A stretch of 64,000 nt of DNA, taken from Clostridia bacterium. Its GTDB lineage: Bacteria > Bacillota > Clostridia > UBA1212 > UBA1255. Of the stretch, positions 7,609-61,336 are shown one piece after another. The stretch's first letter is position 1; each line of letters begins with the position of its first letter. The position numbers and the translations under genes are program-made. The notes below the pieces were generated by a model. It had not been told where the DNA came from, ran no database searches, and was given only the letters and a program-made list of their open reading frames with translations. Location: assembly GCA_016287565.1 (NCBI GenBank), contig JAEFAM010000004.1, forward strand, positions 33,703-97,702. Reading direction: 5' to 3'.

Positions 7609-7626
7609 ATAAAGTAACTCGAGCCT

Positions 7627-7942
7627 GCAACGGGGGACAGACCCCGGTTGCCGAACCGGCCGCGAACGAGGGACAGACTTGCGTTCGCCGCTTTTCCCGG
7701 AATTTTCGAAAAATTACAGGCATATTTCGAATATTTACGGGGAAATTCTACGGGCGGTAGAATTTCGGCAACCGGGGTCTGTCCCCCGTTGCAGGTTTAG
7801 CTCGCACGCCAGTGCGGATTTAGCTTGCCCGAAGGGCAAATTTAGCTGCGTGCCGTGCACGCAATTTAGCTCGCACGCCAGTGCGGATTTAGCTTGCCCG
7901 AAGGGCAAATTTCGCTTAAGAACGGGGACCTGTCCCCCGTTC
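7627..7942. repeat. Composite palindromic element, type A, with hairpin chain
   Basis: This element fills the 7535-8025 spacer. It starts with palindrome P1 (GCAACGGGGGACAGACCCCG..) at 7627-7651. Nested inverted repeats follow: GCGAACG..CGTTCGC, then GAAATTCTAC-GGGCG-GTAGAATTTC. P1 in reverse complement lies at 7768-7792. Next comes a chain of five small hairpins joined by ATTTAGCT: CGCAC/GTGCG, TTGCCC/GGGCAA, TGCGTGC/GCACGCA, CGCAC/GTGCG, TTGCCC/GGGCAA. The end is the palindrome AACGGGGACCTGTCCCCCGTT. The track ORFs crossing it are artefacts of the repeat. A sister copy of the long P1-P1 segment lies at 43580-43930. Confidence 0.9.
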
Positions 7943-15923: not shown

Positions 15924-15939
15924 ATTTGTCCAAAAGCCT

Positions 15940-16120
15940 GCAACGGGGGACAGACCCCGGTTGCGGAGCGAAATAGAACGGGGGACAGGTACCCGTTTCG
16001 CTTGCCCGAAGGGCAAATTTAGCTGCGTGCCCGGCACGCAATTTAGCTCGCACGTTAGTGCGAATTTAGCTTGCCCGAAGGGCAAATTTCGCTCCATAAC
16101 CGGGGTCTGTCCCCCGTTGC
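15940..16120. repeat. Composite palindromic element with hairpin chain
   Basis: P1 at 15940-15964, then palindrome P2 (AACGGGGGACAGGTACCCGTT). A four-hairpin chain follows: TTGCCC/GGGCAA, TGCGTGC/GCACGCA, CGCAC/GTGCG, TTGCCC/GGGCAA, with AATTTAGCT linkers. P1 in reverse complement ends at 16120. The two P1 copies therefore act as terminal inverted repeats. Confidence 0.92.
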
Positions 16121-19908: not shown

Positions 19909-19985
19909 GCAACGGGGGACAGACCCCGGTTGGCGACCCGTTTGCAGAGCGAAATTTGCCCTTCGGGCAAGCGCGGAACGGGGCT
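19909..19985. repeat. Short palindromic element in a divergent promoter region
   Basis: P1 (19909-19933) followed by one reverse-oriented chain hairpin, AATTTGCCCTTCGGGCAAGC, and GGAACGGGG. It looks like a reduced copy of the composite elements, lacking the closing P1. Confidence 0.85.
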
Positions 19986-39133: not shown

Positions 39134-39217
39134 ATCGTTTGTTTTTGCGTTTGATTGCCGGTTTTCAGTATAGGCTTTTCGGCGGGATTAGTCAATAAAA
39201 AAGGAAGCGGCAACGAA

Positions 39218-39369
39218 AGTGATATTCGTGCTGGGGCACGAGTGATATTCCGCTGCGCGGAGTGATATTCGCCTGCGGCGAGTGATATTGTGCTGCGCAC
39301 AGCTAAATTCGGCCTGGCAGCTGAGCTAAATTGAAAGCCGATAGCTTTCAGCTAAATTCCGCTGCGCGG
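39218..39369. repeat. Hairpin chain with AGTGATATT and AGCTAAATT linkers
   Basis: Seven small hairpins in a row: GTGC/GCAC, CCGC/GCGG, CGCC/GGCG, GTGC/GCAC, a CAGCTG-type imperfect one, GAAAGC/GCTTTC, CCGC/GCGG. The first four follow the linker AGTGATATT, the last three AGCTAAATT, which is the reverse complement of the AATTTAGCT linker in the composite elements. No P1 palindromes flank it. Confidence 0.9.
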
Positions 39370-43579: not shown

Positions 43580-43930
43580 GCAACGGGGGACACCGCAACG
43601 GGGGACAGACCCCGGTTGCACCCGCGGTTGCCGGACACGCCGCGAACGGGGGACAGACTTGCGTTCGCGGCTTTTCCCGGGATTTTTGAAAATTAACCGG
43701 CGATTTTCGTAAATTTTCGGCAAAATTCTACCGGCGGTAGAAATACGGCGACCGTGGAACGTCATCCTTTGGCGATGATCCCGCTTGCCCGAAGGGCAAA
43801 TTTAGCTGCGTGCAATGCACGCAATTTCGCTCGCACGCCAGTGCGAATTTCGCTTGCCCCCAGGGCAAATTTAGCTGAGCAACCGGGGTCTGTCCCCCGT
43901 TGCACCCCCCGTTGCACTGTCCCCCGTTGC
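43580..43930. repeat. Composite palindromic element, type A, with hairpin chain
   Basis: Fills the spacer between divergent genes (43447-44044). Partial P1, full P1 (43595-43619), GCGAACG..CGTTCGC, a TTTTCCCGGGA stretch and TTCTACC-GGCGGTAGAA follow as in the 7.6 kb copy. A four-hairpin chain comes next (TTGCCC/GGGCAA, TGCGTGC/GCACGCA, CGCAC/GTGCG, TTGCCC-CCA-GGGCAA). P1 in reverse complement lies at 43879-43903, plus another partial copy. Sequence drift relative to the 7.6 kb copy keeps the stems. Confidence 0.9.
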
Positions 43931-45474: not shown

Positions 45475-45678
45475 GCAACGGGGGACAGACCCCGGTTGCA
45501 CGCGTACCTGTCCCCCGTTTCACGCTGCCGTGAAGCGGCAATTTCGCTGCGTGCAAGGCACGCAATTTAGCTCGCACGCCAGTGCGAATTTCGCTTGCCT
45601 GCAGGGCAAATTTCGCTGTGCAACCGGTACCTGTCCCCCGTTCGAAGGACTCTGCAACCGGGGTCTGTCCCCCGTTGC
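45475..45678. repeat. Composite palindromic element with hairpin chain
   Basis: P1, reversed P2, a GCTGCCG/CGGCAATTT hairpin in place of the first TTGCCC one, then TGCGTGC/GCACGCA, CGCAC/GTGCG, TTGCCT-GCA-GGGCAA, another reversed P2 and reversed P1. It starts 17 bp after a terminator and ends 18 bp before a -35 box. Confidence 0.92.
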
Positions 45679-47427: not shown

Positions 47428-47712
47428 GCAACGGGGGACAGACCCCAGTTGGCAAACCGTTTGACGGCATGAATTTTGGGAAAGACAAAATTCTTACCCG
47501 TTCAAACGGCTTCGCCTTCCCCCTAAATAAGGTTGGAGACAGTCATTCCATGGAACGCGTACCTGTCCCCCGTTCCACGCTGCCGCGAAGCGGCGAATTC
47601 GCTGCGTGCCCGGCACGCAATTTCGCTCGCACGCCAGTGCGAATTTCGCTTGCCCGAAGGGCATATTTAGCTGTGCAACACGGTTTCCCAACCGGGGTCT
47701 GTCCCCGGTTGC
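47428..47712. repeat. Composite palindromic element with hairpin chain
   Basis: P1 variant 12 bp after the stop, then a unique stretch with CGTTTGA..TTCAAACGG and GAATTTTGGG..CAAAATTC inverted repeats, reversed P2, and the chain CTGCCGCGAAGCGGCG, TGCGTGC/GCACGCA, CGCAC/GTGCG, TTGCCC/GGGCAT. It ends with reversed P1 and one more CCGGTTGCA half. It fills the 47416-47755 spacer; no clear promoter follows it. Confidence 0.88.
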
Positions 47713-51709: not shown

Positions 51710-51724
51710 AGTGCAACGGTGGGT

Positions 51725-51884
51725 GCAACGGGGGACAGACCCCGGTTGGCGGACCGTTGGAACGGGGGACAGGTACCCGTTCTACGCTTGCCCGAAGGGC
51801 AAATTTCGCTGCGTGCCTGGCACGCAATTTAGCTCGCACGCCAGTGCGAATTTCGCTGTGCAACCGGGGTCTGTCCCCCGTTGC
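51725..51884. repeat. Composite palindromic element with hairpin chain
   Basis: P1, P2, the chain TTGCCC/GGGCAA, TGCGTGC/GCACGCA, CGCAC/GTGCG, then reversed P1. A partial GTGCAACGG precedes it. It begins about 15 bp after the GH36 stop and ends 29 bp before the -35 of the SRP RNA. Confidence 0.92.
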
Positions 51885-51913
51885 ACCACGTTGCAGGCGG
51901 CCCTGTGTTGCAC

Positions 51914-51948: not shown

Positions 51949-52085
51949 ACGCCGGCTCGTAAAAGTGCCGCCGGGTCTTACGCAACGGAATTTTGTGAAC
52001 CCCGTCAGGTCCGGGAGGAAGCAGCGGTAAGCGAACCCTTTCGTGTGCCGTAAGTCCCCCGACGGTACTTTTAGGAGCCGGCGTT
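51949..52085 (+). ncRNA. ffs: Signal recognition particle RNA, small bacterial type
   Basis: The conserved domain IV tip is present (GTCAGGTCCGGGAGGAAGC, AGCGGTAAGC). The ends pair over more than 20 bp: ACGCCGGCTC-GTAAAAGTGCCG with CGGTACTTTTAGGAGCCGGCGT. A U run at 52085-52088 makes the terminal stem a terminator. At about 137 nt it has no Alu domain, so it is the short bacterial form. Its place directly upstream of dnaX is the common Firmicutes arrangement. Confidence 0.93.
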
Positions 52086-57707: not shown

Positions 57708-57720
57708 GTGCAACGGGCCT

Positions 57721-57857
57721 GCAACGGGGGACAGACCCCGGTTGCAGACCCGACTTGAGCAACCGGGAACAGACGCGGAACACAGAAAAACGGGGGTCTG
57801 TCCCCCGTTAACGGTTTATCTTTGACCTTGCCGTAACGGGGGTCTGTCCCCCGTTGC
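57721..57857. repeat. 137-bp palindromic element, type C, copy 1
   Basis: P1 at one end and its reverse complement type at the other. Inside are GCAACCGGGAACAGACGCGG and the perfect palindrome AACGGGGGTCTGTCCCCCGTT, with ACGGTTTATCTTTGACCTTG between it and the closing end. It differs from copy 2 at only two positions. Confidence 0.95.
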
Positions 57858-57879
57858 ACCGCAGAAAGCGAGGAAGAAA

Positions 57880-58518: not shown

Positions 58519-58524
58519 AGGTCT

Positions 58525-58661
58525 GCAACGGGGGACAGACCCCGGTTGCAGACCCGACCTGAGCAACCGGGAACAGACGCGGAACACAGAAAAACGGGGG
58601 TCTGTCCCCCGTTAACGGTTTATCTTTGAACTTGCCGTAACGGGGGTCTGTCCCCCGTTGC
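58525..58661. repeat. 137-bp palindromic element, type C, copy 2
   Basis: Same length and sequence as copy 1 apart from two substitutions. It begins 6 bp after the stop of the 212-aa membrane protein gene. Confidence 0.95.
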
Positions 58662-58701
58662 AGCCCCCTCAGCCTCATTGCAGCCACAAGGAACGAATAA
58701 A

Positions 58702-61186: not shown

Positions 61187-61193
61187 GTGGGTT

Positions 61194-61330
61194 TTAACGG
61201 GGGACAGACCCCGGTTGCAGCATTGACCTGAGAAACCGGGAACAGACCCGGAACAAAGAAAAACGGGGGTCTGTCCCCCGTTAACGGTTTATCTTTGACC
61301 CTGCCGTAACGGGGTTCTGTCCCCCGTTAA
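61194..61330. repeat. 137-bp palindromic element, type C, copy 3
   Basis: Same 137-bp length as the copies at 57.7 and 58.5 kb but with more substitutions and TTAAC/GTTAA ends. It occupies nearly all the space between the stop of the carbohydrate-binding lipoprotein gene and the -35 of the isomerase gene. Confidence 0.93.
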
Positions 61331-61336
61331 AACCCC

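Follow-up and report, generated by a model that had tools for sequence, protein, structure and literature searches.

Six chains of short hairpins recur in a 64,000-nt window of contig JAEFAM010000004.1 from Clostridia bacterium GCA_016287565.1 (the source genome). We favor, with fair confidence, the interpretation that they are solo copies of a dispersed, modular and non-autonomous mobile "hairpin-array element," probably based on hairpins of single-stranded DNA (ssDNA), that has a bIVP protein as companion and is widespread in gut Clostridia. The unit of this element would consist of a short, perfect hairpin and, after it, a 9-nt linker, AATTT(A/C)GCT or AAYATCACT, with 7 nt unpaired. A full element would comprise two diverging arms with complementary linkers (AGCTAAATT ... 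AATTTAGCT) and would commonly lie directly upstream of a PF05635/TIGR02436 four-helix-bundle gene (bIVP).

Six hairpin chains and further arrays in the window

The first-pass annotation had placed a TGCGTGC-NNN-GCACGCA hairpin at six sites, and we found it at exactly those six, always on the + strand (starts at 7847, 16024, 43807, 45548, 47603 and 51810). With up to two mismatches allowed, six are found against 0.47 expected by chance, and none of 100 shuffles reached six. All six chains are intergenic (Table 1). Their modules keep the fixed order that had been described ([CGCAC-TTGCCC]-TGCGTGC-CGCAC-TTGCCC), the 51.8 kb chain being without the final hairpin. The swapped first hairpin attributed to a single copy is real but occurs in two, at 45.5 and 47.6 kb, where GCCG-type hairpins (GCCGTGAAGCGGC at 45527-45539, GCCGCGAAGCGGC at 47582-47594) take its place. 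Most linkers match the reported AATTT(A/C)GCT, but the variants GATTTAGCT, TATTTAGCT and GAATTCGCT also exist; the fixed length of 9 nt is correct, but base pairing across each hairpin takes up the first A and the last T, leaving only 7 nt (ATTTAGC or ATTTCGC) unpaired. Similarly, the stems are paired while loops vary, as had been claimed, but the six copies by themselves provide no covariation: no pair shows a double change and the sole variation is one U-G, so the constancy of these stems reflects conservation or recent copying. The chains are 70-91% alike over 125 nt (repeat family D1) with REP borders in common, and they appear to be recent copies of a single REP-flanked cassette. Across the window there are at least 17 GGGGGACAG palindromes in forward and 16 in inverted orientation, together with three 143-bp REP composites that carry no hairpin chains and are 89-98% identical (57716-57858, 58520-58662 and 61189-61331).

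Table 1. Positions of chains, arrays, REP palindromes and associated features (window coordinates unless a locus or contig is named; CM R1, covariance model of the six window copies)
Feature	Position	Strand	Details
Chain 1	7797..7916	+	CGCAC, TTGCCC, TGCGTGC, CGCAC, TTGCCC; linkers (G/A)ATTT(A/C)GCT; CM R1 84 bits
Chain 1, five hairpins	7802-7817, 7825-7838, 7847-7863, 7871-7886, 7894-7907	+	
Chain 2	16002..16093	+	TTGCCC-TGCGTGC-CGCAC-TTGCCC; CM R1 85 bits
Chain 3	43785..43876	+	TTGCCC-TGCGTGC-CGCAC-TTGCCC (CCA loop); CM R1 86 bits
Chain 4	45527..45617	+	GCCGT/GCGGC first hairpin, then TGCGTGC-CGCAC-TTGCCT; CM R1 88 bits
Chain 5	47582..47672	+	GCCGC/GCGGC first hairpin, then TGCGTGC-CGCAC-TTGCCC; CM R1 83 bits
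Chain 6	51788..51857	+	TTGCCC-TGCGTGC-CGCAC; last linker adjoins hairpin GTGCAACCGGGGTCTGTCCCCCGTTGCAC; CM R1 88 bits
Seventh array	39218..39363	-	AATTTAGCT linkers, then AATATCACT linkers; CM R1 48 and 31.5 bits
Single hairpin, a remnant	19948..19973	-	TTGCCCGAAGGGCAA with AATTTCGCT linker
Gut-1 RNA (RF01706) match	39217..39293	+	74.3 bits, cut-off 50; antisense to seventh array
REP palindrome, left of chain 1	7624..7655	+	GGGGACAGACCCC type; 100% complementary to 7764-7795
REP palindrome, inverted copy directly before chain 1	7764..7795	-	
Two REPs directly before chain 2	15939..15998	+	GGGGACAGACCCC and GGGACAGGTAC types
Inverted REP after chain 2	16097..16120	-	
Inverted REP after chain 3	43880..43903	-	
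Two inverted REPs after chain 4	45622..45677	-	
Inverted REP after chain 5	47689..47712	-	
Two REPs directly before chain 6	51724..51781	+	
Inverted REP adjoining chain 6	51858..51886	-	
RAYT-like Y1 transposase genes (L029-L031)	G000:C131:127375, C96:15767, C22:13434		REP types GGGACAGACTTGCGTT, GGGGACAGGTACC, GGGGACAGACCCC
~84 bp tandem-repeat centres	L100:9000-9590, L117:5540-6170, L103:9670-10180, L109:6420-6980		
Repeats ~200-400 nt upstream of PF05635 gene	L239, L254, L255, L257, L258, L338		

A seventh array and a lone hairpin in the window had been overlooked. The seventh array bears on the earlier statement that no named family has this design, which we now correct: the Rfam family Gut-1 RNA (RF01706) has it on the opposite strand and matches arrays of the source genome. 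The Rfam comparison that had been proposed thus succeeded in part. Gut-1 scores above its 50-bit gathering cut-off at the 39.2 kb array, and its model identifies 16 further sites in seven source-genome loci, with class-B arrays matching at 50-74 bits; the six chains themselves, however, stay below the cut-off: five score 23.4-30.9 bits, and for the one at 7.8 kb no match was reported. Like the arrays, Gut-1 has short hairpins, three in number, with a 7-nt linker of constant sequence between them (GUGAAAU, which is ATTTCAC in reverse complement); unlike them, it covers a three-hairpin slice only, on the opposite strand. Gut-1 RNA would be a fragment of the proposed hairpin-array elements. The main text of its 2010 description presents it as a likely non-coding RNA known exclusively from environmental (human gut) sequence, and is silent on dispersal, a two-armed form, bIVP linkage and location at hairpin feet (PMC2864571).

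Dispersal and structural conservation of the arrays

The window chains belong to a family that is spread over the whole genome, of which they are a local sample. The linker-hairpin-linker pattern AAYWTMRCT-N8-38-AAYWTMRCT matches the source genome 321 times, against none for its reversed control. A triple-linker pattern gave 191 hits, against none for its control. Parsed arrays carry 2 to 22 linkers of the form AATTT(A/C)GCT or AAYATCACT and draw on a vocabulary of tens of stems; they often occur as diverging pairs and contain higher-order tandem duplications. All 50 of 50 arrays are intergenic, and none interrupts an ORF. The 500-600 bp centres of several diverging source-genome arrays hold an ~84 bp tandem repeat (AAACGCCC..GGGCGTTT plus GGTGGCGCTGCCTCGAA..ATGAGCG). 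As the first-pass annotation had suggested, we built a covariance model (CM R1; matches counted at E ≤ 0.01) from the six copies in the window; it returned 104 matches in 795 kb of sampled source-genome DNA.

Relatives of the same order are mostly poor in arrays, and the wider class was examined for that reason. Arrays occur there in scattered other families of Clostridia (control ~0), with 63 CM R1 matches in 24 loci, most of the genomes being MAGs and the counts, from related copies, not being independent. At two source-genome array sites, several congeners have the same neighbors without the array. The arrays are therefore lineage-specific, and the congeners may have lost them rather than never gained them. 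The SRP locus, where a small bacterial SRP RNA gene occupies window positions 51969-52067 and the REP-chain block stops just upstream of the SRP promoter, was rejected as a clean empty site because congeners, besides lacking the array, also differ in the upstream gene.

The REP borders raise the possibility that the chains are parts of REP/BIME elements moved by the source genome's own RAYT (Y1) transposases. For each of its three Y1_Tnp genes, the flanking REP type also borders window chains, so the bordering GGGGACAG palindromes have a cognate Y1; chains and REPs have been copied together (repeat families D1 and D8); and the last two letters of each linker, immediately ahead of the following stem, are CT, comparable to the cleavage of TnpAREP at CT beside hairpins (PMC8266576). 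However, most source-genome arrays outside the window have no REPs at their ends, and the sampled 17-20 kb stretches around the Y1 genes (L120-L122) contain neither a parsed array nor a CM R1 match. Moreover, Y1_Tnp is absent from the array-rich genomes G116 (98% complete) and G376 (95%), because of which we rejected RAYT/Y1 as a universal mobilizer. Nor do the chains have the conserved palindrome with a tetranucleotide tag (GTAG type): the sampled source-genome DNA has 134 distinct units, and the linker is their constant part. We regard a REP/BIME origin as unlikely. Under our preferred model of a mobile hairpin-array element, the window chains would have joined RAYT-type REPs and then probably spread locally as REP-chain-REP cassettes. 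The source genome contains, in its own right, three REPtron-like systems in a single Clostridia genome.

The arrays are conserved at the level of structure. In the sampled source-genome stretches, 95 of the 134 distinct linker-to-linker units (71%) are perfect hairpins, compared with 19% if each half is exchanged for that of another segment of the same length and 3% after shuffling; the corresponding figures in relatives are 74%, 11% and 2%. Other Clostridia yielded 17 distinct right arms, in which 98% of cells are paired (slid controls, 34-56%), and 9 of 15 pairs contain double changes, which total 44 cells versus 15.8 in shuffles. These results uphold the earlier suggestion of selection or copying at the structure level, in RNA or ssDNA. 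A wider alignment lacking covariation had been named as the outcome that would speak against it, and covariation across the class is strong.

Covariation is weaker as proof of function, since template switching can keep stems perfect without selection (PMC8794818). The arrays could then be neutral by-products, palindromes made and kept perfect by template switching during replication and spread by local duplication, with no dedicated mobility or function. The capacity of template switching to make and repair perfect stems, the higher-order tandem duplications and the identical stems of the six window copies are all consistent with such an origin. It would nevertheless leave unexplained why one fixed linker recurs in unrelated families, why arrays are linked to bIVP genes, and why both the loops and the placement relative to tRNA terminators (described below) are polar, and we consider it very unlikely.

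The loops of the array hairpins, whose closing pairs are mostly C-G, have a strand polarity. On the strand with the AATTTAGCT linker, triloops read GNA 75 times versus TNC twice, and tetraloops GNNA 47 times versus TNNC never. Both C(GNA)G and C(GNNA)G form very stable DNA loops. Selection on RNA tetraloops would favor GNRA; those of the source genome are GNYA in 16 cases versus GNRA in 5. The occurrence of C(GNA)G and C(GNNA)G loops on a strand defined by the linker favors ssDNA over RNA.

Two-armed elements, bIVP genes and hairpin feet

In relatives, the complete element is compact, with AGCTAAATT linkers in its left arm, AATTTAGCT linkers in its right arm and ~45 nt between the two as its centre. 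Because the arms are complementary at their linkers, the whole element folds as a ladder with side hairpins. The relatives' elements (L199-L237) fall into subfamilies with matched ends that resemble short terminal inverted repeats (left hairpins GAATAGATTTAAC.., GCGGTGC.. or GCGTTGC..; right ends GCATCTAAATCGTTCACTGATTCTATAAT, ..TTATACAGTCTTTATAT or ..CCTTATGTGTCGCAAT).

A PF05635/TIGR02436 (bIVP) gene begins 40-48 nt after several of these two-armed elements, and arrays are linked to one PF05635 subclade. A scan of GTDB contigs with a bIVP alignment yielded 75 loci, nearly all from ruminant-gut Clostridia, and at least four linkers lie within 350 nt upstream of 51 of the 56 bIVP genes with at least 70% identity and enough flank (background, 0.2-0.3). 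PF05635 is present in 18/20 array-rich versus 3/9 array-poor genomes (Fisher p 0.004, kinship ignored), and the source genome has two such genes, one of which (C140:10833-11195) lies between two arrays. Across families of the class, array-linked bIVPs share 87-97% identity whereas their flanks are unrelated, implying recent horizontal spread. Beside inspected arrays we found the bIVP alone, sometimes with a further cargo ORF, and no transposase was found within or beside them. A viral origin was rejected, as viral contigs contained no relative of the array-linked bIVP. Reverse transcriptase acting in trans was likewise rejected, as several array-rich genomes have none; RVT_1 is missing from G116, G164, G376, G082, G108 and G134.

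To our knowledge, no function has been established for PF05635 "four helix bundle" proteins, and our literature search found no paper on PF05635 together with hairpins. The array-linked bIVPs are near neutral (pI 7.7-8.8), which speaks against our model to the extent that it has them bind nucleic acid, a role suggested by analogy. PF05635 genes lacking Gut-1-type arrays have other short repeats directly upstream in 5 of 20 cases versus 0.9% of control windows, among them AAATGGCAAATTGAA in tandem, TTCACTCTTCA in tandem and hairpins with ATGAATT linkers.

The position of arrays upstream of bIVP genes could also mean that they are structured RNAs, either non-coding, as proposed for Gut-1, or bIVP leader RNAs bound by their own protein, with solo arrays as decayed or re-used leaders. 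Where the gene starts 40-48 nt from the array there is no room for a promoter between them, the L264 leader folds well as RNA (z -4.8), and both the class-wide covariation and the filing of Gut-1 as a likely RNA (PMC2864571) are in keeping with this explanation. However, the unit lies on opposite strands in the two arms, so that both could not be displayed by a single transcript, and the source-genome tetraloops are GNYA rather than GNRA. Array orientation relative to neighboring genes is random in the source genome (24 same, 23 opposite), and for lack of such a bias we rejected a plain 5'-UTR role for all arrays. In L288 and L301, a promoter-like site separates the array from the start codon. 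Finally, the 7.8 kb chain adopts a rearranged fold as RNA (z -2.2, 9/200 shuffles), whereas as ssDNA it folds into separate hairpins (z -3.1, 0/200 shuffles). We judge a structured-RNA identity to be rather unlikely.

The elements are placed at the feet of hairpins. In 56% of 61 distinct two-armed elements, the left end falls precisely on the 3' foot of a perfect stem (6 bp or longer); right ends do so in 1.6% of cases, and positions drawn at random from the same loci in 0.4%. The window chains adjoin REP palindromes likewise. Of 60 bIVP elements, 13 lie just 3' of a tRNA or tmRNA (the tmRNA neighbors confirmed by Rfam), all on the same strand, with none opposite and none downstream. This placement after tRNA terminators could reflect retention, not targeting.

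We infer that, in the hairpin-array element we propose, hairpin and linker would be recognized strand-specifically on ssDNA during replication, with the loops following linker polarity, and that the feet of hairpins already present, such as terminators and REPs, may be the places where units are copied or joined. The bIVP would be a candidate nucleic-acid-binding partner, by analogy, alongside a host or element enzyme. More tentatively, and with some doubt on our part, bIVPs and interchangeable hairpins with a constant heptamer linker may be cognate partners that together insert at the 3' feet of hairpins already in place (terminators, REPs), or assemble there, without a known transposase or reverse transcriptase. 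Such a structure-addressed system, if true, would provide a function for the orphan PF05635 and Gut-1 families at once. Tying PF05635 and Gut-1, an orphan since 2010, to one dispersed hairpin element yields a protein-substrate pair open to testing, and an unusual system in which it would be structure that is copied, not sequence.

Relationship to known systems

The chains share with REP/BIME elements and their RAYT (TnpAREP) proteins the form of short intergenic palindromes in many copies, and genuine REPs with a cognate Y1 flank those in the window. In contrast to REPs, the stems of the chains vary freely while the linker is fixed, and no Y1 gene is linked to the chains, some array-rich genomes having none. 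IS200/IS605-type elements and PATE-like MITEs move as ssDNA in a hairpin-dependent manner and give rise to non-autonomous copies, a likeness that we take as a lead; they differ in that no transposase or guide/cleavage-site system was found at the arrays.

The nearest precedents are the intervening sequences (IVS) of 23S rRNA and Avd of diversity-generating retroelements. Avd resembles PF05635 (PMC10053308), but several array-rich genomes are without reverse transcriptase. The 23S rRNA IVS encode PF05635 (S23p/bIVP) proteins, sit on rRNA hairpins and have been proposed to spread horizontally (PMC4990558). A PF05635 ORF is found in the array-bIVP composites and not in the window's solo chains. 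In the Rfam-scanned array/bIVP loci there is no enclosing 23S rRNA, the neighbors being tRNA, tmRNA and one 16S rRNA. The arrays are modular and lie at the foot, not the tip, of hairpins, in which they differ from IVS; the two have in common a PF05635 ORF, terminal complementary sequences and a location at hairpins, and hairpin-array elements may offer a possible origin for rRNA intervening sequences.
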